From NCBI RefSeq assembly GCF_036013745.1, contig NZ_CP107880.1:1240001-1304000 (forward strand): a stretch of 64,000 bases of DNA. Direction: 5' to 3'. The position numbers were made by a program, and so were the translations under genes. This document shows, in pieces, positions 8,101 through 40,304 of this stretch. How positions within the stretch are numbered: the first letter of the stretch is position 1; each line of letters opens with the position of its first letter. The notes under the pieces were generated by a model, which worked only from the letters and a program-made list of their open reading frames with translations, did not search any database and was not told the DNA's origin. The stretch is from Streptomyces sp. NBC_00483 (lineage in GTDB: Bacteria > Actinomycetota > Actinomycetes > Streptomycetales > Streptomycetaceae).

Positions 8101-8163
8101 TTGCACACTCTCCGAGATCGCAGATCACCCCACAGGCTTTCGAAGAAGACAGTGAGGCGACCC

Positions 8164-9420
8164 ATGCCCGAGCACGAACCGTTGTCGGCGAAGCGGCTCT
8201 ACGGGCCACAGACCGAGCTGGGGGTGACCAACTTCCCACTGCGCGGCCGTACGTTCGGCGACCTGGGAGCGTTCGTGCGCAACTATGCGCGGGTCAAGCT
8301 CGCTGCGGCCCGGGTCAATCACGAGTGCGGTGTCCTCGACGCCGTTCGCCGGGACGCGATCGTCGCCGCGTGTGAGGAGATCATCTCCGGCGCACACCCG
8401 GACCAGTTCCCGACCCCGCTGGTGCACGGCGGCGGTGGCACCACGACGAACATGAACGTCAACGAGGTCGTCGCCGCCCGCGCATCCGTGCTCGCCGGGG
8501 TCGAGGTGCACCCCAACGACCATGTCAACGCGTCCCAGTCGACGAACGACAGCTACCCGACGGCGATGTCACTGACCGTGCGGGAACTGATCGGGGGTCC
8601 GGCATCCGCGCTGCGGGAGCTGGCCGGCGCGTTCGAGCGCAAGGCCGAGGAGTTCGCCGGCACCCGGCACCTGGGCCGTACCTGTCTGCAGGATGCGGTC
8701 GCCCTGACCGCCGGTGACACGCACCGTGGGCACGCCGGCGCGATCCGCAGGGCAGCAGACGGCTTGGAGACGGCCGCCTCCGCCCTGCGCGAGGTGCCGA
8801 TCGGGGCAACCGCCGTCGGCACCGGGGTCGGAGCCCCGGACGGCTTCGGCGAGCGGGTCGCCGCCGACCTCGCGGGGCTGACAGGCCTGATGATCACTGC
8901 CGCGCCCGACCGGTTCGACGCGCTGGCGCACATGGACCCCTATGCCGCGATCGCCGCGGCCGGATCCCGGGCGGCCATCACCATGGCCAAGATCGCCGCG
9001 GATGTGCGGCTGCTGTCGTCCGGCCCGCACGGAGGCCTCGGTGACCTCACCATCCCCGCGGTGCAGGCCGGTTCATCGATCATGCCCGCGAAGGTCAATC
9101 CGGTGATCCCCGAGTACGTCATGCAGCTCAGCTACCGCATCCGCGGCCAGGCCCTCACCGTCGACTGCGCCGTCGCCGCCGGTGAGCTGGAACTCAACGT
9201 GATGGAGCCGGTCGTCGTCGACGCGCTCACCACGCTCCTCGACGACCTGACCGCAGCCGCACAGACCTTCGCCCGCCGCTGCGTCGACGGTCTCGCCTGG
9301 AACGGCCCACACCGTGAGCGCAATCTCACCGGCGCGCTGGACCACTGGGTCGAACGCGCCGCCTTCGACGGCTACGAGAACGCCACGACCCAGCTCCGAA
9401 GCAAGTCCGCCGACAAGTAG
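8164..9420 (+). CDS. Aspartase/fumarase-superfamily lyase
   Basis: The 418-residue product belongs to the class II fumarase/aspartate ammonia-lyase superfamily. It has TTTNMNVNEVVAARA (near residue 93), NASQSTNDSYPTAM (near 122), and the signature loop GSSIMPAKVNPVIPE (near 303). The signature loop serine is the catalytic base in this superfamily. These lyases eliminate fumarate from substrates such as aspartate, malate, argininosuccinate or adenylosuccinate. The first two motifs favour an aspartase- or fumarase-like enzyme. I chose ATG 8164 because GAGGCGA lies just upstream; a longer frame from 8101 lacks a good ribosome-binding site. It converges with the cyclase gene at 9572-10447, and its upstream neighbour is a dead IclR gene. 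Confidence 0.85.
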   Translation: MPEHEPLSAKRLYGPQTELGVTNFPLRGRTFGDLGAFVRNYARVKLAAARVNHECGVLDAVRRDAIVAACEEIISGAHPDQFPTPLVHGGGGTTTNMNVNEVVAARASVLAGVEVHPNDHVNASQSTNDSYPTAMSLTVRELIGGPASALRELAGAFERKAEEFAGTRHLGRTCLQDAVALTAGDTHRGHAGAIRRAADGLETAASALREVPIGATAVGTGVGAPDGFGERVAADLAGLTGLMITAAPDRFDALAHMDPYAAIAAAGSRAAITMAKIAADVRLLSSGPHGGLGDLTIPAVQAGSSIMPAKVNPVIPEYVMQLSYRIRGQALTVDCAVAAGELELNVMEPVVVDALTTLLDDLTAAAQTFARRCVDGLAWNGPHRERNLTGALDHWVERAAFDGYENATTQLRSKSADK

Positions 9421-9571
9421 CGTGACCCTGCACGTCTCTCCCAGCTGCGGAACTTCGGGCCTTCATTTGTCGGGCCGTTTCGACCCGGGGCCTGTGGTGG
9501 CGGGGACCAACACCTGACGGAGAACAGCCGACTGCTCGGCACTGGATGTACCGAGCGTGCCGCCGGCCGGA

Positions 9572-10447
9572 TCAGAAGACGGCGATCGGATTGACGACGA
9601 GTCCGGTGGTGCCGGTGATGCGCGGCGGTGCCAGGACCAGCATGAAACTCCAGCGGTTCGACGCCTCGCAGCGCTGGGCGAGAGATCCGAGATCGGCGGC
9701 GTCGACCAGTGGGAGGCCGAGTCGTGCGAGCGCGATCTGGTGCATGGGCATGGGGAACCGTGCGGGGCGGGCGTCGCTGATGTCCCCGATATAGATGCTC
9801 GCACCGTGCTCGTTCAGCCAGTGCACGGCGCTGACGTCCAGTCCGGGCACTGGCTGGTCGAAGGGCTGGTTCGTGTCCCATCCGCCGCGCACTACGACAG
9901 CGTCTCCCGCGGACAGTGTCGTGCCTGCCCGCTCCAGGGCAGCGTCGAGGTCGGCACCACCGATGCGCCCGTCGGCGGGCAGGCTGCCGCCCCCGGGCGC
10001 CAGGTCCAGGAGTACGCCGCGGGTCACGAGTCCCTCGCCGAACGGATCGGCCGAGCCGTGCGTCACTCCGGTCGGTGTCACGGCCGCGTGCACCGGCACC
10101 CCGGGGTAGATGTGCTCGTCAACGGGCATATGGGCGACGGCATCAAGATGCGTCAGGGCGGCGTTGTGCGTGTTGATGACGAGGGTGTCCGTCATGGCCA
10201 GGGGCTTCGCGCCGTTGAAGTTCACCGCCTGCATGACTCCGGCCGGCATGGTGGCGGGGCTTCCGACGGGGCTGAGTCCGGTCGTGAGCGACACCGGCCG
10301 GATGCGGCGTGCCAGGCTGACGTGGTGCCCGTCCCTCACCTCGGCCGCGGCTCGTCGCTTTGCCGCCGCGTCGATCAGGTGCAGCGTGCCCAGCTGGTCG
10401 TCGTCGCCCCATCGCCCCCAGTTGGTGGGGAGTTGCGTCTCGCTCAC
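9572..10447 (-). CDS. Cyclase-family metal-dependent hydrolase
   Basis: The 291-residue protein resembles the cyclase/kynurenine-formamidase-like family. The usual HxGTHxDxPxH metal motif is represented by the variant block NTHNAALTHLDAVAHMP, which keeps the spaced His-Asp-His ligands. Family members hydrolyse amides, esters or lactone-like rings, usually with Zn or Mn. The start is a GTG at 10447 that overlaps the TGA of the upstream FAD monooxygenase (GTGA), so translation is probably coupled. The two enzymes may act in sequence, for example oxygenation then ring opening or formyl removal. The substrate is not predictable. Confidence 0.8.
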   Translation of the reverse strand: MSETQLPTNWGRWGDDDQLGTLHLIDAAAKRRAAAEVRDGHHVSLARRIRPVSLTTGLSPVGSPATMPAGVMQAVNFNGAKPLAMTDTLVINTHNAALTHLDAVAHMPVDEHIYPGVPVHAAVTPTGVTHGSADPFGEGLVTRGVLLDLAPGGGSLPADGRIGGADLDAALERAGTTLSAGDAVVVRGGWDTNQPFDQPVPGLDVSAVHWLNEHGASIYIGDISDARPARFPMPMHQIALARLGLPLVDAADLGSLAQRCEASNRWSFMLVLAPPRITGTTGLVVNPIAVF

Positions 10448-12060
10448 TTCCCTGCTCCGTTCCGCATCGACAGGCGCGCGGGCAATCGGTCCAGAGCGGC
10501 GCGGAGGCCGGCGTCCCCGGTGCCGCGTGCGCTGAGATAGCCGTCGGGGCGTACGAGGATCCAGTCACCCTCGGTCGCGGCCAGCGTGTCCTGGACCCGG
10601 CCGTCGGAGTCCCACACACCGTGGCCGTCCTCGTCCGGGGCCGGCCGGCTCCGGTCGATGGTCACCTTGTTCAGCCAGGCCGGTAGTGGCGTGGTCACGT
10701 CGGTGGCCTGGTCCTGGCCGGTGGCGTGCTTGCTCCGCGCGAAGACGAGGAGGTGCCAGGCCGAGGTCCTGAGCAGCGCACGCAGTGCCGTCCAGCCGGG
10801 TGATTGAGCATCGGCGGCGGATACTTGAGTGAGTCGCTGGCCGGCTCTCGGGCCCTCACCCGGCTCGTCGTCGGACACCGTGAGCGGGCTGTCGGGGTAG
10901 GCGATGCTCAGCCCCGACATGTTCCGGATGAGCCGGCGCATGAAGCCACGATCCGAGTCCCGGGTGTCGCTGGTGTCCGTGGTGGTGGTGTCCACCATGG
11001 ACGTGTTCATGACCTCTCCGGTGGAGGCAAGCAGGGCCTGTCCGATGGGGACACGCTCGGCGTCGTAGGTGTCGAGTAGGGCGGCATCGGCGTACCCATG
11101 TACGACCATGGCCAGCTTCCACGCCAAGTTGTACGCGTCCTGGATGCCGGTGTTGAGGCCCTGCCCGGACGCGGGTGAGTGGACATGGGCGGCGTCGCCC
11201 GAGACGAAGCACCGCCCAACGTGCATCACCGGCACCGCGCGTTGCTGGATGGTGAATTTCGATACCCAACTCGGGCTGTCCACGGTGGTGTCGCGCCCCA
11301 GGGCCTGCGACAGCTTGGTGCCGAACTGCCGGGCGATCTGCGCGGGTTGCTCAGCATCTCCCTCGCCGGTCGTGTCCAGGAGCCGCCACTTTCCCGGGTC
11401 CGGGAACGGGAACAGCATCAGCGCGCCGCCGGCCGGGAACAGCCAGTGCAGGCCGTCCCGCTCCAGATCGGTGTGCACGATCGCATCGGCGATCAGCCAG
11501 GTGTGGGCGGCTTCGCCCACCAAGGGGAGTTGGAGGGTCTTGCGGACGGTCGAGTGCCCGCCGTCGCAGCCCCAGAGGTATCGCGCACGCACGGTCTCGT
11601 GCCCCGCAGCCGAGCCATCGTCGCGGCACAACACGGCCGTCACGGCGTCATCGTCGTGCTGGAACGATTCCAGCCTCGTATGCCACTCCACCACGACCCC
11701 CGCCGAAGCGGCATGCCCGCGAAGCACCCTCTCCGTGACCACCTGGTCGATATTGAACATGTACGGAAACCGGGTCGCCAGGCCGCCGAAGTCGTAGTCG
11801 ACCCGGGACGTACGGTCGGCCTGATGACGGATGAACCCGTTGACCCTCGTTCCGTGCGGAGCGATGTCACCGAGGATCCCGAGCTGATCGTAGATTTCCA
11901 GGCTTCGGGCGTGAGTACCCAGCGCGCGGCTGGTCGTGGCCGGGCCGGACGCGGCATCCACCAAGCGAACGGAAACGCCCCGCCGGGCCAGTTGCAACGC
12001 CGCAGTGAGCCCGACCGGGCCGGCCCCTACGACAAGAACGTCAACGTCATAACTCGTCAT
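10444..12060 (-). CDS. FAD-dependent aromatic monooxygenase (PheA/TfdB type)
   Basis: The 538-residue flavoprotein has three family motifs. A Rossmann GAGPVGLTAALQLARRG motif is near residue 11. The DG motif GCDGGHSTVR is near 170. The GD motif GRCFVSGDAAHVHSPASGQG is near 285. A C-terminal thioredoxin-like region ends with WILVRPDGYLSARG, typical of phenol hydroxylase-like and polyketide-tailoring class A monooxygenases that use NAD(P)H and O2 to hydroxylate aromatic rings. The ATG at 12060 has AGGAGG nine bases upstream, and that ribosome-binding site touches the edge of the palindromic operator at 12074-12098. It is divergent from the MarR gene and coupled by overlap to the cyclase-family gene. 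Confidence 0.88.
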   Translation of the reverse strand: MTSYDVDVLVVGAGPVGLTAALQLARRGVSVRLVDAASGPATTSRALGTHARSLEIYDQLGILGDIAPHGTRVNGFIRHQADRTSRVDYDFGGLATRFPYMFNIDQVVTERVLRGHAASAGVVVEWHTRLESFQHDDDAVTAVLCRDDGSAAGHETVRARYLWGCDGGHSTVRKTLQLPLVGEAAHTWLIADAIVHTDLERDGLHWLFPAGGALMLFPFPDPGKWRLLDTTGEGDAEQPAQIARQFGTKLSQALGRDTTVDSPSWVSKFTIQQRAVPVMHVGRCFVSGDAAHVHSPASGQGLNTGIQDAYNLAWKLAMVVHGYADAALLDTYDAERVPIGQALLASTGEVMNTSMVDTTTTDTSDTRDSDRGFMRRLIRNMSGLSIAYPDSPLTVSDDEPGEGPRAGQRLTQVSAADAQSPGWTALRALLRTSAWHLLVFARSKHATGQDQATDVTTPLPAWLNKVTIDRSRPAPDEDGHGVWDSDGRVQDTLAATEGDWILVRPDGYLSARGTGDAGLRAALDRLPARLSMRNGAGK

Positions 12061-12073
12061 GGCAAGTAGACCT

Positions 12074-12098
12074 CCTGTGTCAGCTAAGCTGACACAGG
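12074..12098. promoter_or_regulatory. Perfect 25-bp palindrome, probable MarR operator
   Basis: CCTGTGTCAGCT, one A, then AGCTGACACAGG form a perfect inverted repeat with 12-base arms. It lies in the 68-bp gap between the divergent FAD monooxygenase (start 12060) and the MarR gene (start 12129). MarR proteins commonly autoregulate and repress a divergent gene from such a site. It overlaps the ribosome-binding sequence of the monooxygenase gene. Confidence 0.72.
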
Positions 12099-12128
12099 AA
12101 TGTAGGCGAGCGAGAGGGACGCAAGCAA

Positions 12129-12569
12129 GTGGGTACTGACGATCATTCGGACACGCATCTGCCACTCGTCCACCTTCTGCAACGAGGCGTCCGGTGGTTC
12201 TCCGACGAACTGATGGAGCGTCTGGAGGCCGCGGGCGTGGACCCCATCACACCGGCACACGCGACCGTGCTCGCACACCTGGACCGCGCCACATCGCTGA
12301 GCGTCGCCGAACTCGCCCGCCGCGCCGGCGTCACCCGCCAGACGATGCATCGCGCTGTCACGCAGCTCCTCGGCGAAGGCCTCCTGACCCGTGCGCCGGG
12401 GCCGGGATTCCCGCGCAGCACCCTCATCGGACTGACCGACGCGGGATGTCAGCGCCGTGACGTCGCCTTGGGCATTCTTCGCGACCTGGAACAAGTACTC
12501 GGCAGTCAACTGGGACCCGCGGCGCTGACGGAGTTGCGCAGCAGCCTGACGCGAGCATGGCCACAGTGA
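12129..12569 (+). CDS. MarR-family transcriptional regulator
   Basis: The 146-residue product has MarR size and a winged helix. The recognition part is at about residues 56-78 (LSVAELARRAGVTRQTMHRAV) and the wing follows at LTRAPGPGFPRSTLIGLTDAG. The start is GTG 12129, preceded by an AGAGGGA sequence. It is divergent from the monooxygenase-cyclase pair with a perfect 25-bp palindrome between them. It most likely represses both transcription units until a phenolic or related ligand binds. Confidence 0.9.
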   Translation: MGTDDHSDTHLPLVHLLQRGVRWFSDELMERLEAAGVDPITPAHATVLAHLDRATSLSVAELARRAGVTRQTMHRAVTQLLGEGLLTRAPGPGFPRSTLIGLTDAGCQRRDVALGILRDLEQVLGSQLGPAALTELRSSLTRAWPQ

Positions 12570-12822: not shown

Positions 12823-14238
12823 ATGACAGCAAGAGAAGACACGCTTGGAAACAGCCGGTCAGCGTTTTCTCCCACGGCACGCTTGAGTTCGTTGCCCGGA
12901 ACCACCGCGTGGCAGCGGCTGTGGTGTGTGGTGCTGGGAGCTCTGTTCACGTTCGATGTCGTCGACATCAACGCGTTCTCGTACGCAGCTCCGACCATCA
13001 CGGAGGAGTGGGGGCTTTCGCTGTCCAGTGTGGGCGTCGCGACCTCAGCGGCCTTCCTGGGCATGTTCTGCGGAGCAGTAGCGGGTGGCCGGGTGTCCGA
13101 CCGGGTGGGGCGCAAGCGGACCATCGTCGGCGGTGTCCTGCTGTATTCGGCCGCGTCGTTGCTGACGACGCTCGCGGGCGGCCTGGGGTTCCTGGTCGTC
13201 GTGCGGTTCCTGACCGGCGTGGGGATCTCGGTGGCGACCGGCGCACTGATCGTCTACGTCGCGGAGATGTTTCCGCGTGCGTCCCGGGGCCGCTACCAGT
13301 CACTGCTGCTCGCCATCGGGCTGCTGGGGGCGCCGCTGGCAGCGTTCTTCGCCCGTCTGGTGATTCCGGCCGGCGAGGGCATGTGGCGATGGGTCTTTGT
13401 CCTGGGTGCCGGCGGTCTCGTGCCGGGCCTGGCGGCCGCGCGGCTGCTGCCGGAATCGGTGCGCTGGCAGTGTGCGCGCGGCCGGATCGACGACGCCTTG
13501 CGTACCGTGCTGCGGCTGGAGGACGAAGCCGAGCGGCGCTACGGGGCGTTGCCGCGGCCTCAGGAGGAGCCGGCGGTCGTTCCGGCCGGTCTCCGGGATC
13601 TTCTCCGGGGCGGAAATCTGCGCAACCTCACCGTGGGGGTGGTCAGTTCGGTCCTGGTGTCCTTCGCGTTCTTCGCCTTCAACGCCTACGTGCCCACGCT
13701 GCTGGTGGAGAACGGCTACACCCGTACCGAGAGCCTCAGCCTGACACTGGCGTTCTCCTGCGCGGCGGTTCCCGGGGCCCTGCTGGCCTGGCCTCTCGTC
13801 GACCGTCTGGAGCGCAAGTGGGCCATCTTCGGCCTGACGGTGCTCGTCGCCGCGCTGATGCTCCTGTTCGGCATGACCCGGAGCGAGGTGGGGGCCGCGG
13901 TGTTCGGGTTCGTGCTGAGCATGCTCCTGCAGACCCAGACCGCGTTCATGTACGCCTACCTGCCGGAGCTGTTCCCGACGCAGCTGCGGGGGCTGGGGGC
14001 CGGCCTGTCGAACGGGCTCGGACGGCTCGCGGTGTTCGGCGGTGGGTTCTTGTTCGCCCCGATGCTCCACGGCCTCGGCTTCGCCGGCTTCTTCGTTCTG
14101 ATCGCCACGATTCTCGTGCTGGGCGGAGCCACCACCGGTGTGTTCGGCATCCGCACCTCGGGCCGGGCCCTCCTCGAGAACGAAGCCACGTCCCACACAC
14201 CCGAACAAGCATCACATCCGTCGAAGACCACGGCATGA
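12823..14238 (+). CDS. MFS transporter, aromatic acid/sugar-symporter-like
   Basis: The 471-residue protein has twelve predicted membrane helices. The MFS signature GRVSDRVGRKRTIVGG lies between helices 2 and 3, and PELFPTQLRGLGAGLSNGLG in the second half resembles AAHS and sugar-porter families. Helix 1 contains TFDVVDINAFSYAAP, the acidic pattern seen in aromatic-acid:H+ symporters. It is followed after 48 bp by an amidase gene on the same strand, so it probably imports the amidase substrate or a related compound. The 253 bp upstream show no further gene. Confidence 0.88.
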   Translation: MTAREDTLGNSRSAFSPTARLSSLPGTTAWQRLWCVVLGALFTFDVVDINAFSYAAPTITEEWGLSLSSVGVATSAAFLGMFCGAVAGGRVSDRVGRKRTIVGGVLLYSAASLLTTLAGGLGFLVVVRFLTGVGISVATGALIVYVAEMFPRASRGRYQSLLLAIGLLGAPLAAFFARLVIPAGEGMWRWVFVLGAGGLVPGLAAARLLPESVRWQCARGRIDDALRTVLRLEDEAERRYGALPRPQEEPAVVPAGLRDLLRGGNLRNLTVGVVSSVLVSFAFFAFNAYVPTLLVENGYTRTESLSLTLAFSCAAVPGALLAWPLVDRLERKWAIFGLTVLVAALMLLFGMTRSEVGAAVFGFVLSMLLQTQTAFMYAYLPELFPTQLRGLGAGLSNGLGRLAVFGGGFLFAPMLHGLGFAGFFVLIATILVLGGATTGVFGIRTSGRALLENEATSHTPEQASHPSKTTA

Positions 14239-14286: not shown

Positions 14287-15708
14287 GTGGAAACTGAAGA
14301 CGAGCTGACCTGGGCACCTGCCTGGAAGCTGCGTGAACTCGTCGCCGCCAAGCAGGTGTCGCCCGTGGAGCTGACACGGCACTTCCTCGCACGCATCGAA
14401 GACCTGGAACCGACACTCCACGCATTCATCACCGTCGCCGCCGACGACGCCATCGAACAGGCCCGGCGCGCGGAGGACGCCGCCGTCCGCGGCGAGGAAC
14501 TGGGGCCGCTGCACGGCGTGCCGATCGCCATCAAGGACCAGTTCTGGACCCGCGGCATCCGCACGACCGGTGGTTCCCTGGTCTTCGACGACTACGTGCC
14601 TCAGGAGGACTCGGTGCACGCCGAGCGCGTCCGACGGGCCGGCGCGGTCATCGTCGGTAAGACGAACACTCCCGAGTTCGGCATGTTCGGCCGCACGGTC
14701 AACCGGATCACCGAGGAGACCCGGAACCCCTGGGACACCTCCCGTACGTCCGGTGGGTCGAGCGGGGGCTCCGCGAGCGCCGTCGCCGCGGGCATGGTCC
14801 CGCTCGCCATCGGCAGCGACGGAGGCGGGTCCCTGCGGCTGCCTGCCGCGTACTGCGGGGTGTTCGGCCTGCACCCGAGCGACGGCCGCGTGCCGCGCCA
14901 CGGCAGCTTCGGCGGAGCGCTGTTCACCTCCGGGGTCGGCCCGGTCAGCCGGAACGTCCGCGACGGAGCCACGCTGTTTCAGGTTCTGGCCGGACCGGAC
15001 GACCGCGATCCCACCTGCATGCCGGACACCCCACCCGACTACCAGGGTCAACTCGGCGACGGTGTAGGGGGGATGAGGATCGCGTGGACCTCCGACTACG
15101 GCTATGGCGACTTCGCCAGCGGGGACCCGGAGTTCCTGGACACGGCCAGGGCGGCGGCGCTGTGCTTCGGTGAACTCGGTGCGAAGGTCGAGGAGATCAC
15201 ACTCGGCCTGCGCGATGCCGACACGGCGTGGCGCCTGGTCTCCGGCGCCGACCGTTACGCGTCGCTGGGAGAGCGGCTGCACGGGGATCCGGCGACCCGT
15301 GCCCAACTCACCCCCTATGTCGAGGCGATGTTCTCGGCGTCGCGTGCCATCACCGGCGCGGAGTATTCGAGGGCGATGCGGATGCGCTACGAGTCGATCG
15401 CCCGGATGCGCCGGCTCTTCGAGGAGTACGACCTGATCGTGACGCCGACGACGCTCCTGCCTCCCAGCGAAGTCACCCCCAAACCCGCCGCGCTCACCCA
15501 ACCGCAGGCGCACGGGTACACGCGGTACACCAGGCTGATCAACTTCACCGGGCTGACCGCGGCCAGCGTTCCCTGCGGGTTCGTGCGGGGTCTGCCGGTC
15601 GGGTTGCACGTCATAGGGAAGCCGAACGGCGAGGCGGGCGTGCTGCGCGCCTGCCGGGCGCTGGAGGAGATCGCGCCTTGGACGGACCGGCACCCGGCGC
15701 TGCCCTGA
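14287..15708 (+). CDS. Amidase (amidase-signature family)
   Basis: The 473-residue enzyme carries the amidase-signature triad. The Lys is in VPIAIKDQ (K83), the cis-Ser in SGGSSGGSASAVAAG (near 159), and the nucleophilic Ser in GSDGGGSLRLPAAYCG (near 182). It should hydrolyse a small carboxamide to acid and ammonia, as in indole-acetamide or aryl-amidases. The start is GTG 14287 with a strong AGGAGGAAAA ribosome-binding sequence. It forms a transporter-amidase pair with the preceding MFS gene and converges on the MmgE/PrpD gene across a strong terminator hairpin. Confidence 0.9.
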   Translation: METEDELTWAPAWKLRELVAAKQVSPVELTRHFLARIEDLEPTLHAFITVAADDAIEQARRAEDAAVRGEELGPLHGVPIAIKDQFWTRGIRTTGGSLVFDDYVPQEDSVHAERVRRAGAVIVGKTNTPEFGMFGRTVNRITEETRNPWDTSRTSGGSSGGSASAVAAGMVPLAIGSDGGGSLRLPAAYCGVFGLHPSDGRVPRHGSFGGALFTSGVGPVSRNVRDGATLFQVLAGPDDRDPTCMPDTPPDYQGQLGDGVGGMRIAWTSDYGYGDFASGDPEFLDTARAAALCFGELGAKVEEITLGLRDADTAWRLVSGADRYASLGERLHGDPATRAQLTPYVEAMFSASRAITGAEYSRAMRMRYESIARMRRLFEEYDLIVTPTTLLPPSEVTPKPAALTQPQAHGYTRYTRLINFTGLTAASVPCGFVRGLPVGLHVIGKPNGEAGVLRACRALEEIAPWTDRHPALP

Positions 15709-15843: not shown

Positions 15844-17307
15844 TCAGCCGTCCTGGCTCCCGCACTTGCGCATCAGATCCGTGAGATCCGCGAGGCTGTC
15901 CAACTCGCCGACACTTTCCTCGATCTGGCGTACCTGATCGGCGGCGAGAACCCGGCCGGCGTTCGAACGGAACTTGCCGAGGACCACGGCCTCGTCGAGG
16001 GGATTGCCCGGTGTCCCGCTGGACGTGGGGATCCGCCTGCGCAGTTCACGCCCGTCCGCCAGGCGCAGGATCACCTCGCCCGGGAAGCGGACGGGGAAGT
16101 CGCTGTCGGGGTCGGGCGGGCACCCCACCTTCGCGGCGACCGCGAGTACGTCTGGGTCGTCCAGCGGCTGGTCGTAAAAGGTCGCCAGGTCGACTCGGCC
16201 GGAGACCAACGCCTGCGCCACGATGTACTGCACGCTGAACTGCGCCTCGTACAGCGTCCGCGGAGCCTTCTTCCGCTCGGCGGGCTCGGTGACCGAGGGC
16301 ATGATGCGGGGCGTGGTGGGGCAGATGATCTCCTCGATCTCCGTGGACTTCAGGGGCTGCCCGCCCAGCTGCGAGCGGAGGTCGAGGGCCGCGTCGACGA
16401 ATGCGTGGGTGAAGTGGCAGCAGGGGTAGGGCTTGAGCGCCGTGTCGGCGCACATCCACCGGTTGCCGAGGTCGTCGAGCCCGAGGTCGATCTCGGCCGG
16501 CGTCATGCCGAGGTGGCTCGCGAACAGGCCGCGCGGTCCTTCGAAGATCGTGGGAGGTCCGGCGAAGCCGGATGCCGCGAGTGTCGCGGCCACGATCCCG
16601 GAGTGGGCGGCCCAGCCCGGGTGGAGGCGCTTGAGGGAGGAGCCGGCGAGTTCCAGGGTGCCGGCGGCCTGGCTGCCGCAGATGCCGAGGGCCGAGACTG
16701 TGTCCGCGGTGTCGAGGCCGCGCAGGCGCGCGGCGACGGCCGCGGCCGCGAAGGTGCCCGCGATGCCGGTCGGGTGGAACCCTCGGTCGTGGAAGCTGCC
16801 CGCTCCCGCGCCCGCCACCCGGCAGCCGATCTCCAGGCCGATGACGTAGGCGGTCAGGAGGGACTCGCCGTCCGCTTCCTGCTCCTCGGCCACGGCGAGC
16901 GCGGCGGCGAGCGCGGGCGCCGTCGCATGGTAGATGGCGCCGATGTGGGTGTCGTCGAAGTCCAGGGCGTGGACGAGGGTGCCGTTGACGAGCGCCGCGG
17001 ATGCCGCCGGCAGCCGCGTTCCGTATCCGATGACGTGGCTGCGTCCGCCGTCACCGAGGGCCAGGGCGGCGTCGAGGACGGGTCGGGTGAAGTCCATGCC
17101 GGAGGAGGCGAGTGCGATGCCGATTCCATCGAGCAGGTGGGCGCGGGCCATGGCACGCACCTGCTCCGGGATGTCCTTCGCACACAATTCGGTGGCGAAT
17201 CGGGCGAGCCGTTCGGCGGCCGTCGCGGGCACGTTGGCCGGTGTGCCACTTCCGAGTGCTTCACCGGTCGGGCTCGCGCCGACGGTAGGTGTGATGCCGG
17301 TGGTCAC
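15844..17307 (-). CDS. MmgE/PrpD-family protein
   Basis: About 487 residues of MmgE/PrpD type (2-methylcitrate dehydratase-like). There is a helical N-terminal domain with DGIGIALAS, the block LVNGTLVHALDFDDTH near residue 105, FHPTGIAGTFAAAA, and KPYPCCHFTHAFVDAA. The last block is the conserved segment usually written KPYPSCR or similar. Family members dehydrate or isomerise branched tricarboxylic or hydroxy acids, but many paralogues outside the methylcitrate cycle have no assigned substrate. I chose GTG 17307 because GAAGGAG lies 5 bases upstream; alternatives are GTG 17313 and TTG 17334. No citrate synthase-like or aconitase-like gene is adjacent, so a methylcitrate role is unlikely here. 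It may be controlled by the neighbouring IclR. Confidence 0.85.
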   Translation of the reverse strand: MTTGITPTVGASPTGEALGSGTPANVPATAAERLARFATELCAKDIPEQVRAMARAHLLDGIGIALASSGMDFTRPVLDAALALGDGGRSHVIGYGTRLPAASAALVNGTLVHALDFDDTHIGAIYHATAPALAAALAVAEEQEADGESLLTAYVIGLEIGCRVAGAGAGSFHDRGFHPTGIAGTFAAAAVAARLRGLDTADTVSALGICGSQAAGTLELAGSSLKRLHPGWAAHSGIVAATLAASGFAGPPTIFEGPRGLFASHLGMTPAEIDLGLDDLGNRWMCADTALKPYPCCHFTHAFVDAALDLRSQLGGQPLKSTEIEEIICPTTPRIMPSVTEPAERKKAPRTLYEAQFSVQYIVAQALVSGRVDLATFYDQPLDDPDVLAVAAKVGCPPDPDSDFPVRFPGEVILRLADGRELRRRIPTSSGTPGNPLDEAVVLGKFRSNAGRVLAADQVRQIEESVGELDSLADLTDLMRKCGSQDG

Positions 17308-17474
17308 AGTCACTCCTTCAAAGGATGCGGTCAACGGGGCGATCTCGTTTTCGTTGATACCGCGCGAGAATTTCCCGACCCATTACCGCAAGCGTGAAGG
17401 GGCGCCGCGACATGTCGGCGCATGCGTCCTGGGCCGGTCGTCATCGTCGGATCGGCCACGGTCGACGGGCAACC

Positions 17475-17497
17475 TTAGTGCCGTTCACCGCAACTAA
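17475..17497. promoter_or_regulatory. Possible second IclR binding site
   Basis: TTAGT and ACTAA arms flank GCCGTTCACCGCA. The inner GTTCACCGCAACT nearly matches GTTCATCGCAACT within the inverted repeat at 18420-18436. The site lies upstream of the MmgE/PrpD gene and next to the end of the IclR gene. It suggests that the same regulator controls both units. Confidence 0.35.
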
Positions 17498-17508
17498 TCT
17501 CGGCGACG

Positions 17509-18354
17509 TCAGCGGGTCAGCAGCTCCTGGATCGTCACGTCCAGCGAGTCGAGGCGCACCGACGAGTTCGGCCCGATCACCACTGCCAGGCGAGGGGCGA
17601 GTTCGGCGCTGGCGGCCTGCAACGATCCCACCAGTCCCAGCAGTTTCCGCTCCGGCAGGCGTGCCTCGGGCCCCGCGATCGCCAGCGAGCCCAGCGGGTA
17701 TCCGTCGGCGGGGTCGAGCAGGGCCGTCGAGATGCCGTGCAGTCCGACGTGATTGCTGGAAAAGGACATCGCGTAGCCCTGTTCGCGGATCTCCGAGAGC
17801 TGCCTGCGCATCCGGGGCCGCTGCTCGGGCGCCAGTTGCTGCTCGATGATCTGCTCCGCCTCGGCCTGCGGCAGATGCGCCAGGATCGACGTCCCGCTGC
17901 ACCCGGAGGTCAGAGGCGAACGCTCACCGAACATCACCACCCGGCGCAAAGCGCTGTGCGGCGCCTCCTCGCCGAGTACCAGGACCCGGTGCCCGCCACT
18001 GCGCAGGTGCAGGGTGGCCGTCTCTCCGCCGCCCAGGGCCAGGCGCATCAGCACGGGCCGGGTCGACCGGATGAGCGCCGGACGCGGACTCATCAGTGTG
18101 GCCAGAGCGATGGCACGGCTCCCGATCCTGTAGCCGCTGCGCCCGACGTGATGGACGAATCCGCTGTCCTGAAGGTTCCTCAACGCGCGGTACGTCCGTG
18201 TCTTCGACAGCCCGGAACCGGCCGAGATCGCGGTCAAAGAAGCGGGCTGTTCCATGCCGGCGAGCAGTTCGAGCACCCTCAGCGCACGAAGCGCCGGTAC
18301 CGGCTCTTCCGGGGCGGTCGTTGGCGCGTCGCATGCGACGTCCGTGTTTCCCAT
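17509..18354 (-). CDS. IclR-family transcriptional regulator
   Basis: The 281-residue product has the IclR plan. The winged helix is at about residues 22-85 (LRALRVLELLAGMEQPASLT, GLSKTRTYRALRNLQDSGFV, GYRIGS). It is followed by an effector domain of normal length with a late LGSLAIAGPEARL motif. It is divergent from the monooxygenase-AtuA operon that starts at 18554 and adjacent to the MmgE/PrpD gene. An inverted repeat at 18420-18436 lies between the divergent starts. It probably controls that operon in response to a pathway metabolite. Confidence 0.9.
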   Translation of the reverse strand: MGNTDVACDAPTTAPEEPVPALRALRVLELLAGMEQPASLTAISAGSGLSKTRTYRALRNLQDSGFVHHVGRSGYRIGSRAIALATLMSPRPALIRSTRPVLMRLALGGGETATLHLRSGGHRVLVLGEEAPHSALRRVVMFGERSPLTSGCSGTSILAHLPQAEAEQIIEQQLAPEQRPRMRRQLSEIREQGYAMSFSSNHVGLHGISTALLDPADGYPLGSLAIAGPEARLPERKLLGLVGSLQAASAELAPRLAVVIGPNSSVRLDSLDVTIQELLTR

Positions 18355-18419
18355 CGGAACTCCACTCCTCGATCTCGTGCCACCATTCCCGCTCGGTGCA
18401 CGCTCCCACGGCCTCCGTG

Positions 18420-18436
18420 GTTGCGTTCATCGCAAC
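18420..18436. promoter_or_regulatory. Inverted repeat, probable IclR operator
   Basis: GTTGCG and CGCAAC are perfect 6-base arms separated by TTCAT. They lie between the divergent IclR (start 18354) and flavin monooxygenase (start 18554) genes. A related half is found at 17483-17495. Confidence 0.55.
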
Positions 18437-18553
18437 TCTGATTGCGGCCCGTGCCGCGGATCGTCCACGGTCCTTGAGGCCGATGTCAATGGAGTCCCAC
18501 GGAAAGCGACCCCGGAGACCCGGCACCGCTGACGCCATCACGGAGGTTTTCCC

Positions 18554-19918
18554 ATGCCCGACCAGACGCGGCAAATGTCCCTCATCGCGTTTCTCCAGGC
18601 ACAGAATTGCTCGAATTACGTCGGGTCCTGGCGGCACCCTGCATCGATGACGGACTTTCTGTCCGCCGACTACTTCACGCGTATCGCGAGGACACTGGAG
18701 GACGCCACCTTCGACATGGCGTTCTTCGACGACCGGCTCGCCATGCCGGACATCTACGGACAGAGCCACGACCTCGCCGTCCGCCACGGCATCCGCTCGG
18801 TCAAGATGGACCCCACGCCGATCCTCATGGCAATGGCCATGGCGACCCGCCACCTCGGGCTCGGGGCCACGTACTCGACGACGTACTACGAACCGTTCCA
18901 CGTGGCACGCCTGTTCGCGACGCTCGATCTCATGACCGGTGGCCGCGTCGCCTGGAACATTGTGACGTCGATGAACGACTCGGAGGCCGCGAACTTCGGC
19001 CGCGCCTCCCACCTGGAGCACGACCTGCGCTACGACCGGGCCGACGAGTTCCTGCAGATCGTCCGTGACATGTGGACCAGCTGGGACGACGACGCTCTCG
19101 TCCTGGACAAGTCGTCTGGGGAGTTCGCCGACCCCGGCAAGGTCCGCAGGACCGCCTTCAACGGGAAGTACTTCGACGTCAACGGCACGTTCACGGTGCC
19201 ACGTTCCCGCCAGGGACACCCCGTGCTGCTGCAGGCGGGCTCCAGCGGGCGCGGCAGGGCCTTCGCCGGCCGCTGGGCCGACGTGGTCTTCACCGCCTAC
19301 TCCTCCCGCGAGGCCGGCGAGAAGCAGTACCGCGCCGTCAAACAGGCCGTCGCCGACGCCGGCCGGGACCCCGGGCAGGTCGTGGTCGCACCCGCGATCG
19401 GAGTCGTCACCGCAGAGACCCCCGAACTCGTCGAGAAGAAGTACGAGTTGATCGATGCGCTGGCCCGCCCGGAGGACAGTCTCGCCCTGCTGTGCGAGGT
19501 CCTCAACACCGACCTGTCCACGCGCCCCTACGACGAACCGTTCACCGACAAGGAGCTCGCCGACATGTCCTGGCAGGGACTGCGGGACCGGGTGATCCAA
19601 CTCAGCGGCACCGCCAATCCCTCGGTGCGCGACTTCGTGCAGTACTCCGGACGCGGATCGCTGCCCAAGGGCGGTTCCACGCTTGTGGGTACACCCACCC
19701 AGATCGCCGACCAGTTGGAGACATGGTTCGGCACCTGCTGCGACGGCTTCGTCATCTCCGCCGCCTCGGTACCCGGCACCTACGAGGACTTCGCCCGGCT
19801 GATCGTGCCCGAACTCCGCCGCCGCGGCCTGGTCAAAGAGACCTACGCCGGCGACACCCTGCGCGGCAACCTCGGCCTGCCCGCCCCCGCCCCCTTCGCA
19901 CAGGGGGCCCGCGCATGA
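18554..19918 (+). CDS. NtaA/SnaA/DszA-type FMNH2-dependent monooxygenase
   Basis: The 454-residue LLM-class (bacterial luciferase-like TIM barrel) protein has the length and motifs of the NtaA/SnaA/DszA group. These include FDMAFFDDRLAMPDIYG, the substrate-side MATRHLGLGATYSTTYYEPF, and AWNIVTSMNDSEAANFG. Members take reduced FMN from a separate reductase and cleave C-N or C-S bonds, or oxygenate heterocycles (nitrilotriacetate, EDTA, dibenzothiophene sulfone, pristinamycin precursors). A reductase of the right type is encoded in the same operon at 21656-22177. The stop overlaps the next ATG (ATGA), indicating coupling. The substrate is unknown. Confidence 0.9.
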   Translation: MPDQTRQMSLIAFLQAQNCSNYVGSWRHPASMTDFLSADYFTRIARTLEDATFDMAFFDDRLAMPDIYGQSHDLAVRHGIRSVKMDPTPILMAMAMATRHLGLGATYSTTYYEPFHVARLFATLDLMTGGRVAWNIVTSMNDSEAANFGRASHLEHDLRYDRADEFLQIVRDMWTSWDDDALVLDKSSGEFADPGKVRRTAFNGKYFDVNGTFTVPRSRQGHPVLLQAGSSGRGRAFAGRWADVVFTAYSSREAGEKQYRAVKQAVADAGRDPGQVVVAPAIGVVTAETPELVEKKYELIDALARPEDSLALLCEVLNTDLSTRPYDEPFTDKELADMSWQGLRDRVIQLSGTANPSVRDFVQYSGRGSLPKGGSTLVGTPTQIADQLETWFGTCCDGFVISAASVPGTYEDFARLIVPELRRRGLVKETYAGDTLRGNLGLPAPAPFAQGARA

Positions 19919-21300
19919 CCGTCTCGCTCCCTCTCCGCGTCTTCACCCCACAGGGCATGCTCGGCTACGGATACGACGAGACCGACCTGCACCGCACCAT
20001 GGAAGACGGCGTCGACGTCGTCGTGGTCGACTCCGGGTCGACCGACCCGGGACCGTACATGCTCGGCCTCGGCACCACCCTCGTCACCGAAAAGTCCTAC
20101 GCCCGCGACCTGCGCCCCCTGCTCAGGGCCTGCCTCGCCCACGGCGTCCCGCTGATCATCAGTTCGGCCGGCGGAGCGGGCACCGACGCCCAAGTGCGCT
20201 GGATGACGGACCTGGTGGAGCGACTCGCTGTCGAGGACGGCGTCTCTCCGCGCATAGCGAACATCTTCGCCGACATCCCCGCCGGCACCGTCACGGAGCG
20301 CCTGACGCAGGGCCGCATCGAGCCCAACGTCCGGGGGGAACTGCCCACACGGAACGACATCGGGCAGGCGGAGGCGATCGTGGCCCAGATGGGAGCCGAG
20401 CCCTTCCTCGGGATCCTCGGTGGTGACGAGGCCTTCGATGTGATCATCGCCGGCCGTTCCTACGACCCTGCCCCGCACGCCGCGTTCGCCATCCACCACG
20501 GCGTCGACCCCGCCATCGCCTGGCACATGGGCAAGATCCTCGAATGCGGCGCGGCCTGCGCGGAGCCCAAGGGAGGCGGCGTCGTCGCCACGGTCCACCG
20601 GGACAGCTTCGAGCTGACGCCCACCGGCGCAGCCCAGCGCTGCACCCCGCTCTCCGTCGCCGCACACACTCTGTACGAGAAGAGCCGCCCCGATCTCCTG
20701 CCCGGCCCCGGCGGCGTGCTCGACGTCAGCGACTGCACGTACGAGGCCGTCGACGAGCGGACCGTGCGGGTTCAAGGAAGCCGCTTCATCCCGTCCCCGC
20801 ATCCGACGGTCAAGCTGGAGGGGGCGGCGGTCGTCGGCCACCGAGCCGTCTTCATCGGGGGGATCCATGATCCCGTCCTCATCGGCCAGCTCGACACATT
20901 CCTGGAACGCGTCGAGCAGCGCGTCGGCGCCCTGCACCCCGACCTGGCCTCCGGAACAGCCACCCTCGCCTTCCACGTCTACGGACGCAACGCGGTCATG
21001 GGACCGCGCGAGACCGAGACCACGATGCCGCACGAGGTCGGGGTCCTGGGTGAAGTCACAGCCCCCACACAGCAGTTGGCCCTCGACATCTGCACCAGCG
21101 TCCGGATCGGCTGCCTGCATCTGAGCTACCCCGGCCAGCTCGCGACGGCGGGGAACATGGCACTGCCCCTCAACCCGATGGAGAGTCCCATCGGCCCGGT
21201 GTGTGCCTTCACGCTCTACCACGTCATGGACAGCCAGGACCTGGACCTGTTCCCCATCTCGTACCGGCAGATCGGCTCCCCGGAGGTGGTGTCACGATGA
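19915..21300 (+). CDS. AtuA-family protein (acyclic terpene utilization AtuA-like, DUF1446)
   Basis: The 461-residue protein starts at the ATG overlapping the upstream stop; the longer open frame upstream is a shadow of the monooxygenase gene. It shows the AtuA/DUF1446 features VVDSGSTDPGPYMLGLG near residue 38, IISSAGGAGTD, IIAGRSYDPAP, and HMGKILECGAACAEPK. AtuA was named from terpene catabolism in Pseudomonas, but the biochemical activity of the family is not established to my knowledge. Here it is flanked by a flavin monooxygenase and a DUF4387 protein with 4-base overlaps on both sides. The three products should therefore be made together. Confidence 0.85.
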   Translation: MTVSLPLRVFTPQGMLGYGYDETDLHRTMEDGVDVVVVDSGSTDPGPYMLGLGTTLVTEKSYARDLRPLLRACLAHGVPLIISSAGGAGTDAQVRWMTDLVERLAVEDGVSPRIANIFADIPAGTVTERLTQGRIEPNVRGELPTRNDIGQAEAIVAQMGAEPFLGILGGDEAFDVIIAGRSYDPAPHAAFAIHHGVDPAIAWHMGKILECGAACAEPKGGGVVATVHRDSFELTPTGAAQRCTPLSVAAHTLYEKSRPDLLPGPGGVLDVSDCTYEAVDERTVRVQGSRFIPSPHPTVKLEGAAVVGHRAVFIGGIHDPVLIGQLDTFLERVEQRVGALHPDLASGTATLAFHVYGRNAVMGPRETETTMPHEVGVLGEVTAPTQQLALDICTSVRIGCLHLSYPGQLATAGNMALPLNPMESPIGPVCAFTLYHVMDSQDLDLFPISYRQIGSPEVVSR

Positions 21301-21638
21301 CCGCGACCGTCCCACTGCGCGAACTCGCCGCGGTGATCCGCAGCAAGAACGCGGGCCCCTACGAGATCACCTTCGACGTCATGTTCAACGAGCCCTCCCG
21401 CTACGCCCACGTCCGCGACAGCGGCGTCCTGAACGCCGCCGGCCTGTCCGCCCTCTTCAACGTGGCCGAGAAGGACGTCCGTACCTGCGTCTTCTTCGAG
21501 CCCGCGCTGGCCTTCAAGTTCACCATCGTCCGCGGGGGCGCCCAGGGAAGCGTGGGCGAGCGCGACACCTTCGGAGCCCAACAGCACGGACCGCTGCTCG
21601 ACATCCGGATCCCGGTACACCGGTCCGCCGCGTCGTGA
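21297..21638 (+). CDS. DUF4387-family protein
   Basis: The 113-residue protein begins at an ATG overlapping the AtuA stop (ATGA). The conserved N-terminal block LRELAAVIRSKNAGPYEITFD is that of DUF4387 proteins, which are commonly found beside AtuA homologues, sometimes fused to them. The rest is small and has no membrane segment. It is likely a small subunit or partner of the AtuA protein; its activity is unknown. An open frame reaching further upstream is an overlap with the AtuA gene and has no ribosome-binding site. Confidence 0.85.
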   Translation: MTATVPLRELAAVIRSKNAGPYEITFDVMFNEPSRYAHVRDSGVLNAAGLSALFNVAEKDVRTCVFFEPALAFKFTIVRGGAQGSVGERDTFGAQQHGPLLDIRIPVHRSAAS

Positions 21639-21655
21639 GCGGAGAGGAGATACAC

Positions 21656-22177
21656 ATGACCACCCCGACCGCTTCCACGGTCACCACCACAGGCCGTCGG
21701 CTCGATCCACAGACACTGCGCGAGGCGTTCGGCCAGTTCCCCACCGGCGTCGTCGCCCTCGCCGCCGAGGTGGACGGTGAGCGCGTGGGCCTGGCCGCGA
21801 GCACCTTCGTGCCGGTCTCCCTGGACCCGCCCCTCGTCTCCGTCTGCATCCAGAACACCTCCTCCACCTGGCCCCGACTGGCCGGCGCGGACCGGCTCGG
21901 GATCAGCGTGCTCGGAGCCGAACACGGCGCGGCGGCCCGTACGCTGGGCAGGAAGGCCGGGGACCGCTTCGCCGGCCTGTCCACCCACGCCACCCGTCAG
22001 GGTGCGCTGTTCGTGGAGGGCGCCTGCACCTGGCTGGACACCTCGGTCGCGGACACGGTCCACGCCGGCGATCACACGATCGCGCTCCTTCGCGTCCACG
22101 ACCTCACCGTACGGCCCGAGTTCAGCCCACTCGTCTTCCATGCCAGCGCGTTCCGCCAACTGCTGACGGCTTCGTAG
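21656..22177 (+). CDS. Flavin reductase family protein
   Basis: The 173-residue protein has the flavin reductase-like split-barrel pattern: LREAFGQFPTGVVALAA, GLAASTFVPVSLDPPLVSVC, and FVEGACTWLDTSV near the C-terminus. Such enzymes reduce FMN or FAD with NAD(P)H and hand it to a partner oxygenase. Placed last in the operon headed by the NtaA-type monooxygenase, it is the evident reductase component. GGAGAGGAGA lies just upstream of ATG 21656. It might also supply reduced flavin to the acyl-CoA-dehydrogenase-fold monooxygenases near 50-54 kb, which have no neighbouring reductase. Confidence 0.9.
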   Translation: MTTPTASTVTTTGRRLDPQTLREAFGQFPTGVVALAAEVDGERVGLAASTFVPVSLDPPLVSVCIQNTSSTWPRLAGADRLGISVLGAEHGAAARTLGRKAGDRFAGLSTHATRQGALFVEGACTWLDTSVADTVHAGDHTIALLRVHDLTVRPEFSPLVFHASAFRQLLTAS

Positions 22178-37044: not shown

Positions 37045-37695
37045 CTACCGCGCCGGAGTCGACTCACGGATGTGCACCGGTGCTGCGGTGGCTGCGAGGA
37101 CCTGGCCAGTCGACACTCCGGGCGCCGTCTCCACAAGGACCGGACCGCGGTCGGTGATGTCGAGCACGGCGAGGTCGGTGATGATCCGGTCGACGCATCG
37201 GCGGCCGGTCAGCGGCAGGGTGCATGTGGAGACGATTTTCGGGCTGCCGTCCCGGGCGGTGTGTTCCATGGTGACGATGACCCGGCGGGCGCCGTTGACG
37301 AGGTCCATGGCCCCACCCATGCCCTTGATCATCTTTCCCGGGATCATCCAGTTGGCGAGGTCGCCCTCGGCGGACACCTGCATGCCTCCGAGGATCGCGG
37401 TGTCGATGTGTCCGCCGCGGATCATTCCGAAGGAGTCGGCGGAGTCGAAGAACGACGCTCCCGGCAGGACGGTCACGGTCTCCTTGCCGGCGTTGATGAG
37501 GTCGGGATCGACGTGGTCCTCGTCCGGGTAGGGGCCGGTACCCAGGATGCCGTTCTCCGACTGGAGCACCACGTGCACGCCTTCGGGGACGAACCCGGGG
37601 ACGAGGGTGGGCAGGCCGATGCCGAGGTTGACGTAGTCGCCGTCGTTGAGTTCGGCCGCCGCGCGGGCGGCGATCTCGTTCCTGTCCCAGGCCAT
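37045..37695 (-). CDS. 3-oxoacid CoA-transferase subunit B
   Basis: The 216-residue beta subunit carries the catalytic Glu in LQSENGILG (near residue 48), preceded by [35 protein letters not shown] and [18 protein letters not shown] follow. With the alpha subunit it transfers CoA from succinyl-CoA to a 3-oxoacid such as 3-oxoadipate or acetoacetate, forming a glutamyl-CoA intermediate. Its ATG overlaps the TGA of subunit A, so the two are coupled. PcaJ/CatJ and ScoB cannot be told apart here, so no symbol is given. It lies within an aromatic-degradation operon, which favours 3-oxoadipate or a related acid. Confidence 0.92.
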
Positions 37696-38477
37696 CAGCG
37701 TGTCACCGTTCCTCGGGTCCCCGGGGTGGAGACCGTCCGCTTCTCGATCTGCTTGTCGGCCGCCTGCCGCGGCGTCAGGGCCACGACGCGCTGGACGTAG
37801 ACGCCGGGCAGGTGGATCTCGTCGGGGCCCAGCTCTCCCGGTTCGACGAGCTCCTCCACCTCGGCGATCGTCACCCGCCCGGCCATGGCCGCCTGTGGGT
37901 TGAAGTTGCGGGCGGAGGCGTCGAAGACGAGGTTGCCGTGCCGGTCCCCTCTGGCCGCTCGTACCAGGGCGTAGTCGCAGGTGATGGCTTCCTCCAGGAG
38001 GAAGTCCCGGTCGCCGAAGCGCCGGGTCTCCTTGGCCGGGGAGGCGACGGCGACACTGCCGTCGGCGCGGTGGCGCCAGGGGATGCCACCGTCGGCGAGC
38101 GGGGTACCGACTCCGGCAGGGGTGTAGAAGGCGGGGATGCCGGAGCCCCCGGCCCGCAGCCGTTCGGCGAGGGTGCCCTGCGGCACGAGTTCGACCTCGA
38201 GTTCGCCCGACAGGTACTGGCGGGCGAACTCCTTGTTCTCACCCACATAGGAGCCGGTGACCCGGGCGATGCGGCGGGCTCCGAGGAGGATGCCGAGGCC
38301 GTGGTCGTCGGTGCCGCAGTTGTTGGACACCACGCGCAGGCCGCTCGCGCCCTGCGCGTACAGGGCGGCGATGAGGGTGCTGGGGATGCCGCAGAGGCCG
38401 AACCCGCCGACGGCCAGGGAAGCGGCGTCGCCGATGTCGTCCACGGCGGCGGCCGCCGAGCTGACTGTCTTGTCCAT
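37695..38477 (-). CDS. 3-oxoacid CoA-transferase subunit A
   Basis: The 260-residue alpha subunit shows [20 protein letters not shown] near residue 20, [18 protein letters not shown], and [11 protein letters not shown] near 94. These are the family's CoA-binding blocks. KEGNL-like [19 protein letters not shown] appears later. It pairs with subunit B downstream. ATG 38477 has AAGGAA upstream. The gene lies 170 bp after the FAD hydroxylase gene on the same strand and may have its own promoter. It joins ring degradation to CoA-thioester formation and the TCA cycle. Confidence 0.92.
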
Positions 38478-38647
38478 GGGTTCCTTCGGTTCTGGGAAGT
38501 TGCCGCCGTGGGCATCCGGGCCGCGCGACAGCGGTGACGCGGCCCGGACACCGGACGGTGCCGCGGCACAAAGGCCCCGGCACGGCGGCGCGTCGGCCCG
38601 TGCGGGACCGGCGCCGCGGTCGGCGCGCTCTTGCGGTGGCGGAGCGT

Positions 38648-40300: not shown

Positions 40301-40304
40301 GGTT

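Follow-up and report, generated by a model that had tools for sequence, protein, structure and literature searches.

The window analysed here is a stretch of 64,000 nucleotides from Streptomyces sp. NBC_00483 (positions 1240001-1304000 of a source genome of one contig, 10.24 Mb), and its subject is a four-gene operon in which an AtuA-family protein and a DUF4387 protein are encoded between a flavin-dependent monooxygenase and a flavin reductase. This gene set is real, conserved and coherent. The AtuA–DUF4387 pair resembles the two subunits of a citramalate lyase of solved structure, and we consider it fairly probable that the locus is a portable, O2-dependent module that breaks down a carboxylic acid and ends in a 2-oxo acid and an acetyl unit.

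The AtuA–DUF4387 pair and its monooxygenase

The operon lies on the plus strand and begins with a luciferase-like (LLM) monooxygenase of the NtaA/DmoA family, dependent on flavin mononucleotide (FMN) and 454 residues long (18554-19918; TIGR03860, PF00296). It is followed by the AtuA-family protein, assigned as a citramalate-lyase-type large subunit (CmlA-like, 461 residues, 19915-21300; PF07287), the DUF4387 protein, assigned as the corresponding small subunit (CmlB-like, 113 residues, 21297-21638; PF14330 and a match to PDB chain 9erq_B), and the flavin reductase (173 residues, 21656-22177; PF01613). ATGA overlaps of 4 bases join the monooxygenase to AtuA (19915-19918) and AtuA to DUF4387 (21297-21300), and the flavin reductase starts 17 bases past the DUF4387 stop. 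The operon outlined in a preliminary description of this DNA, with overlaps joining its first three genes, is therefore confirmed in all its parts, with matches to curated models of 77 bits for PF07287 (cut-off 22.8), 122 bits for PF14330 (27) and 113 bits for PF01613 (27).

The same description took the reaction of AtuA/DUF4387 to be not known, a view that is outdated, since the two proteins match two chains of PDB entries 9erq and 9evf ('Citramalate lyase – ADP – pyruvate complex'), which these entries, by their entry and molecule names, call citramalate lyase subunits A and B. Window AtuA aligns with subunit A over the full length (E 1.2e-138, profile positions 1-451), shares the citramalate lyase fold and has citramalate lyase as its best structural match, and DUF4387 matches 9erq_B with an E value of 1.1e-20 (phmmer). 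This two-gene lyase type is already known from a solved structure and, judged by homology, the pair has an assigned reaction class, so that it is not of wholly obscure function. Genes of this kind are annotated as of obscure function or as terpene genes, and the link to the solved enzyme gives a large family (4818 of 7996 scored candidate proteins match window AtuA at E <=0.001) a testable reaction class.

The related loci compared here (numbered with the prefix L) are the best 80 of 99 confirmed AtuA loci, being divided into set A, with 30 loci whose AtuA is at least 53% identical to window AtuA, and set B, with 50 more distant AtuA loci; their genes were called by a codon-usage heuristic, not taken from annotation. 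DUF4387 stands beside AtuA in 29/30 set A and 48/50 set B loci, and in the phylum it occurs in few genomes (5 of 396). A homologue of the monooxygenase (60-85% identity) is observed in 29 of the 30 set A loci, spanning Actinomycetota and Pseudomonadota, and in none of the 50 set B loci. It lies at most 4.5 kb from AtuA in 28/30 set A loci, the exceptions being L024 (6.6 kb) and L035, whose contig begins inside AtuA. In an AtuA tree of 89 rows, from which the partial AtuA of L063, L065 and L085 were left out, the window groups with the set A rows in a single 30-row clade (SH-aLRT 100) apart from 9erq_A, with the monooxygenase near in 28 of them; the tree search was quick, and long branches outside this clade are uncertain. 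The oxygenase label changes 6 times on the tree, against a mean of 26.3 for shuffled labels. Moreover, pairwise distances of the partner proteins correlate at 0.73-0.89, above all 2000 shuffles for each pair, shared organism ancestry contributing to these values. The coupling of AtuA–DUF4387 to the monooxygenase is real, and both this tie and the idea of a candidate undescribed catabolic pathway, put forward earlier, gain support from the strong co-conservation and congruent divergence.

The monooxygenase scores 487.4 bits on TIGR03860 (cut-off 279.7), which places it among the NtaA/DmoA FMN monooxygenases, and its closest solved chain is DszA (5tlc, E 8.6e-116). A heteroatom-containing acid is a possible substrate because the closest solved relatives are named, among others, as desulfurisation, dimethyl-sulfide, nitrilotriacetate and EDTA enzymes. 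The flavin reductase, matched somewhere in 20/30 set A loci, would be the probable supplier of FMNH2. The next-best copy of the monooxygenase in the same genome has 36% identity. The module is uncommon: within the genus, an AtuA of at least 53% identity is found in 2 of 295 genomes, with 19 others having AtuA at 37-43%, and a monooxygenase of at least 60% identity is found in the same two; in the class, AtuA of at least 53% occurs in 1 of 394 genomes, the window's own. This patchy distribution with conserved content suggests that the module moved horizontally as a unit. Among 40 plasmid records with an AtuA match, none reaches 60% identity (best 41%).

Three AtuA-type genes are present in this genome: that of the window, a second AtuA–DUF4387 pair and a long AtuA at ~5496149 (L008) with PF23544, a C-terminal AtuA ferredoxin-like domain that is absent from window AtuA. 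The second pair (L007 7585-10654; C1:1325584-1328653, minus strand) has an AtuA of 41% identity at ~1325600-1327270, ~22 kb past the window end, and has an MFS gene and a GntR-type regulator as neighbours, with no copy of the monooxygenase there. DUF4387 as a split-off C-terminal domain of the long AtuA was rejected, a profile comparison with the L008 domain, with one sequence on one side, giving 0.3% probability. Also, the set A clusters L021, L024, L027, L028 (Caballeronia, Chitinasiproducens) and L034 contain an additional, distant AtuA (36-39%), which is accompanied by DUF4387 wherever the stretch extends far enough, and a second monooxygenase copy is seen in L027, L028 and L038. Such second pairs in Caballeronia-type and Neoroseomonas clusters were considered as true citramalate lyases and set aside, as their branches are long and fall apart from 9erq_A. 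In the locus from Amycolatopsis acididurans (L063 9989-11977), the AtuA frame matches only query residues 7-280 and runs into a Zn-type alcohol dehydrogenase, and DUF4387 was not found; either a true deletion or a join made in assembly could account for this. In a Rhodospirillales locus (L059 10001-11344) the AtuA match has an in-frame stop at residue 61.

Operator-like sites, MmgE/PrpD and accessory genes

An IclR-family regulator (17509-18354, minus strand; PF09339, PF01614) is confirmed as divergent from the operon, and IclR genes of 53-78% identity adjoin the monooxygenase in 4/4 actinobacterial set A loci (L063, L011, L012 and L010, the last from Streptomyces canus). In the window, the IclR/monooxygenase intergenic region contains a perfect operator-like palindrome, GTTGCG-N5-CGCAAC (18420-18436), and 4 bp beyond it a third half, ATTGCG. 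A second, degenerate operator-like site, GTGCCGTTCACCGCAACT (17478-17495), lies upstream of the MmgE/PrpD gene and is identical at 15 of 18 bases to GTTGCGTTCATCGCAACT (18420-18437), so that the operator half recognised there earlier is in fact a nearly complete site. The window holds two copies of this 18-base site, against 0.02 expected from shuffles, and no third copy at <=3 mismatches. The layout recurs in S. canus, where the IclR/monooxygenase region has the same palindrome, then a third half after 4 bases, and a perfect copy upstream of the MFS–MmgE/PrpD genes matches the second site of the window; between IclR and the monooxygenase in L011, L012 and L063, which belong to other genera, no such palindrome was seen. 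As read from the sequence, an operator-like pattern is common to the operon and MmgE/PrpD in two Streptomyces genomes, and IclR would probably control both through GTTGCG-N5-CGCAAC. A genome-wide search with the 17-base site (<=3 mismatches) gave 11 forward and 6 reverse matches, compared with 4 and 2 for a control; two of the 17 are the operator-like sites, and another lies inside the window at 42486. A larger IclR regulon was dropped on these 17 loose matches against 6 for the control, further targets being possible.

The MmgE/PrpD-family gene (15844-17334, minus strand; PF03972 with 221 bits against a cut-off of 32.1, PF19305), encoding a predicted isomerase or hydratase, lies beyond IclR and on its strand. 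The listed start is TTG 17334, GTG 17307 behind GAAGGAG being more likely from the sequence. The co-occurrence expected for PrpD holds in part: at 50-75% identity MmgE/PrpD is found in 20/30 set A loci, with the other 10 lacking a match, and at 26% in 2/50 set B loci. Among solved structures, IDS epimerase, B. subtilis 'IRG1' and cis-aconitate decarboxylase score almost equally as its nearest relatives, 2-methylcitrate dehydratase being far behind; scores on the 2-methylcitrate dehydratase models are 67.6 against 950 (NF042438) and 25.3 against 458 (TIGR02330). The six substrate-coordinating positions of IDS epimerase, as given in PMC12290011, were mapped onto the window protein. Residues H122, D125, H136, H187, K235 and K301 are invariant in 21/21 MmgE/PrpD proteins, and the place of Tyr145, the second base of IDS epimerase, is taken by His182, also invariant in 21/21. 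Because the characterised members described there perform proton transfer at C2 of a 1,4-dicarboxylate (PMC12290011), a role as epimerase/isomerase would be slightly favoured over hydration.

An MFS transporter gene (12823-14238, plus strand; PF07690) is a probable member of the module, with homologues in the L010, L011 and L012 clusters at 68, 51 and 44% identity. Other genes vary between loci, the counts being for set A and set B, respectively: metallo-beta-lactamase-fold hydrolase, 7/30 (two query types, 2 and 5 loci) and 0/50; Zn-type alcohol dehydrogenase, 3/30 and 0/50; Fe-type alcohol dehydrogenase, 4/30 and 1/50; and aldehyde dehydrogenase, 5/30 and 2/50. The flavin-synthesis genes RibB (2/30) and RibH (4/30), both 0/50 in set B, are in keeping with a monooxygenase that requires FMN. 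Elsewhere in the window, probable catabolic genes are found at 8101-12165 and 37045-40315 (Lyase_1, cyclase, FAD monooxygenase and CoA transferase; PF00206, PF04199, PF01494, PF01144). Also, a Klebsiella plasmid typed as conjugative (L132, NZ_MK167989.1, 5942-16048; one of 12 Klebsiella plasmid records with an AtuA match) has an AtuA–DUF4387 cluster with a metallo-beta-lactamase-fold hydrolase, a LysR regulator, two aldehyde dehydrogenases, a glucose-1-dehydrogenase-type gene, an alcohol dehydrogenase and a fumarate hydratase. A lactone- or alcohol-to-citramalate route is possible there; as a lead, the hydrolase, the alcohol and aldehyde dehydrogenases and the fumarate hydratase would fit conversion of a lactone or alcohol to an unsaturated dicarboxylate, its hydration and cleavage.

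Proposed pathway and alternative readings

In the proposed pathway, the two-component flavin monooxygenase and its reductase would attack a substituted acid, by C-S, C-N or C-O cleavage or by a Baeyer-Villiger-like insertion, to give either a branched C4-C6 dicarboxylate or a precursor of it, unsaturated or epimeric. MmgE/PrpD, by C2 proton transfer on the dicarboxylate as an epimerase/isomerase or hydratase, would then provide the 2-hydroxy acid in the right form. Finally AtuA–DUF4387, predicted to be an AB complex and probably ATP-linked, would split R-C(OH)(COO-)-CH2-COO- into a 2-oxo acid and an acetyl unit, a class assigned by homology to the solved enzyme; the 2-oxo acid would be pyruvate if R is methyl.

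More distant relatives of the monooxygenase bear on the last step. Seven loci of 18-19 kb each have a monooxygenase of 44-52% identity, and no AtuA match was found within any of these stretches. Five of them (L142, L145-L148) encode a family III CoA-transferase together with a CitE-like protein only a few genes away, and the domains PF02515 and PF03328 are confirmed in each. The NCBIfam scores of these proteins (the L148 transferase not included) do not reach the equivalog cut-offs, so their exact function is left unassigned. The CitE-like protein of L147 is closest, among solved proteins, to malyl-CoA/beta-methylmalyl-CoA lyases and then to the mitochondrial citrate lyase beta-like protein, also called citramalyl-CoA lyase. 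L063 has a partial CoA-transferase, a CitE-like gene and a second monooxygenase (49%) on one stretch, the latter ending ~7 kb before its incomplete AtuA. In some relatives of the monooxygenase, the lyase step would thus apparently be performed by a CoA-transferase and a malyl/citramalyl-CoA-lyase-like enzyme. This suggests two possible ways to cleave one hydroxy-dicarboxylate; the attachment of a single oxygenase family to two unrelated lyase systems speaks for a malate-, methylmalate- or citramalate-type intermediate. Tentatively, and with rather less than even confidence, the data may be read as an aerobic pathway, not described before, that degrades a C5-type acid bearing a heteroatom or a lactone and whose last C-C cleavage exists in two unrelated, interchangeable versions beside the same monooxygenase family, one the ATP-linked AtuA–DUF4387 and the other the CoA-transferase with the citramalyl/malyl-CoA-lyase-like enzyme. 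The apparent swap of one lyase for another is a direct handle on the pathway intermediates. A family III CoA-transferase gene and an HpcH/HpaI (CitE-like) gene are also adjacent in the window's own genome, ~13 kb before the window (L009 45-1861; C1:1225044-1226860).

Several observations weigh against the proposed pathway. The oxygenase-linked AtuA clade is separate from the structural citramalate lyase 9erq, and in a comparison of 19 against 17 hand-picked AtuA rows (L063 left out), 19 positions, including 212, 219, 220 and 225, are mostly fixed but different between the set A clade and the citramalate-lyase-like group. For example, the set A clade has a loop ECG..C.EPKG, with K219, where the other group has ECA.....PGSGSD. 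The separate clade and its specific residues imply that the substrate may not be citramalate. The clade does not include 4 of the 32 AtuA rows with a monooxygenase near by, these being additional copies within set A clusters. Of the 10 set A loci where MmgE/PrpD was not found, some are cut by contig ends, and one characterised MmgE/PrpD protein is described as inactive on citramalate, mesaconate and aconitate (PMC12290011). The chemistry of the monooxygenase step is a guess. The CoA-transferase/CitE pair is missing in two of the seven more distant monooxygenase loci, L143 (48%), whose CoA-transferase is 4.6 kb away and in which a CitE-like gene could not be made out by eye, and L144 (44%), with neither gene; also, three of the five pair-bearing genomes (G096, G325, G385) are from one genus, so that the independent evidence is thin. 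Experiments on the oxygenase-linked AtuA clade were not found in the literature searched.

A further point against the proposed pathway is that a sister AtuA group (L045, L039 and L057) is accompanied by aconitase, PrpF and tricarboxylate transporters, neighbours that point to citrate-type substrates there. By eye, tricarboxylate transporter genes are seen in these loci (L045 9986-17990, L039 6858-14821, L057 9977-17777) with aconitase, isocitrate dehydrogenase or PrpF, and their AtuA–DUF4387 is possibly a citrate-type lyase for tricarboxylate use. The window lyase could cleave a citrate-type tricarboxylate (R = CH2COO-) to oxaloacetate and acetate, with MmgE/PrpD, and PrpF where present, handling an aconitate-type alkene. 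The aconitate hydratase, isocitrate dehydrogenase, PrpF, LeuCD-type and transporter genes of the sister group would fit this, as would the presence of PrpF in 4/30 set A and 3/50 set B loci and of TctC-type binding proteins in 15/30 and 14/50. However, the 30 set A loci yield just 2 weak matches (30%) to the L045 type of aconitase, the set-A-specific K219 differs from the sister group too (V/A/S), and five monooxygenase relatives stand near CitE-like genes, the one compared being closest to malyl-CoA lyases. We regard a citrate-type substrate as unlikely.

Improbable as well is a route like the B. subtilis yxe pathway, in which MmgE/PrpD would epimerise a non-enzymatic 2-substituted succinate (an S- or N-adduct), the monooxygenase would cleave the C-X bond and the lyase would remove the dicarboxylate fragment. 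Two proteins match window MmgE/PrpD with nearly the same score, IDS epimerase (2hp0, 150 bits) and B. subtilis 7bra (148 bits), the latter presumably YxeQ, a presumed MmgE/PrpD homologue, and the invariant His182 is consistent with this route. Nonetheless YxeK releases the 2-oxo acid directly, which would leave no obvious 2-hydroxy acid for the lyase. In favour, the known MmgE/PrpD isomerases treated in PMC12290011 act on 2-substituted succinates, and the yxe locus joins the monooxygenase YxeK with YxeQ, whose function is given as not known in PMC9706529.

The preliminary description linked the operon to an amidase (14287-15708, plus strand; PF01425, 350 bits against a cut-off of 27), and thereby to an amide-containing acid whose breakdown the amidase would start. 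This neighbour gene is real, and it lies 48 bases behind the MFS gene that has homologues in the clusters of three actinobacteria. Nevertheless, it is separated from the operon by the convergent MmgE/PrpD gene, the window holds no further copy of the operator-like site, and no amidase match is found in any of the 30 set A and 50 set B loci, S. canus included. The amidase was therefore rejected as a pathway member, and because it is absent from 80/80 related loci an amide substrate is very unlikely; from the earlier interpretation, the catabolic unit with the monooxygenase stands and the amidase falls. Least credible of all is degradation of acyclic terpenes or leucine, suggested by the naming of PF07287 after AtuA of acyclic terpene use and by genes resembling acyl-CoA carboxylase genes (by eye) beside the long AtuA of L008, since window AtuA lacks the PF23544 of the long form and matches citramalate lyase best in structure, and no acyl-CoA carboxylase is found among ten window proteins scanned.

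For the proposed pathway, the oxygenase-coupled clade, its substrate and the alternative lyase were not found in the literature searched, and the conserved clade points to an acid degraded by bacteria of two phyla through a route not found there. In that literature, 'DUF4387' as a whole word gave no match, and AtuA is absent from the titles and abstract starts found on citramalate lyase from 2021. None of the items pairing aconitate terms with AtuA, DUF1446 or DUF4387 holds those three names, and none pairing MmgE/PrpD, nitrilotriacetate monooxygenase or LLM terms holds AtuA or DUF1446.

Comparison with known systems

The nearest known relative of the window pair is CmlA/CmlB (9erq, 9evf), from which it differs by its separate clade and by the loop around residues 212-225. 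Moreover, the window clade is oxygenase-linked and without methylaspartate-pathway genes, the ammonia-lyase being found in 0/30 set A against 16/50 set B loci. Enterobacterial methylaspartate clusters also have an AtuA(DUF1446)–DUF4387 pair downstream of methylaspartate ammonia-lyase, the DUF1446 gene being placed beside the ammonia-lyase gene in PMC4682846. However, these clusters serve glutamate fermentation, with glutamate mutase and mesaconase, and no oxygenase is seen in the stretch examined.

The B. subtilis yxe operon for S-(2-succino)cysteine breakdown resembles the window in having a monooxygenase, YxeK, beside a presumed MmgE/PrpD homologue, YxeQ. Unlike the window, its gene set, as given in the source, has no AtuA–DUF4387 and includes an acetyltransferase, a deacetylase and an ABC transporter (PMC9706529). 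The monooxygenase itself is like the NtaA/DszA/CmoJ-type two-component FMN monooxygenases in its TIGR03860 score above the cut-off and its adjacent flavin reductase, whereas it constitutes its own subfamily, at least 60% identical across two phyla. Finally, window MmgE/PrpD shares both Pfam domains and the six coordinating positions with its family (IDS epimerase, (S)-(R)-methylsuccinate isomerase, cis-aconitate decarboxylase and 2-methylcitrate dehydratase), and it departs from them in having His for the catalytic Tyr of IDS epimerase and in its different genomic partners.

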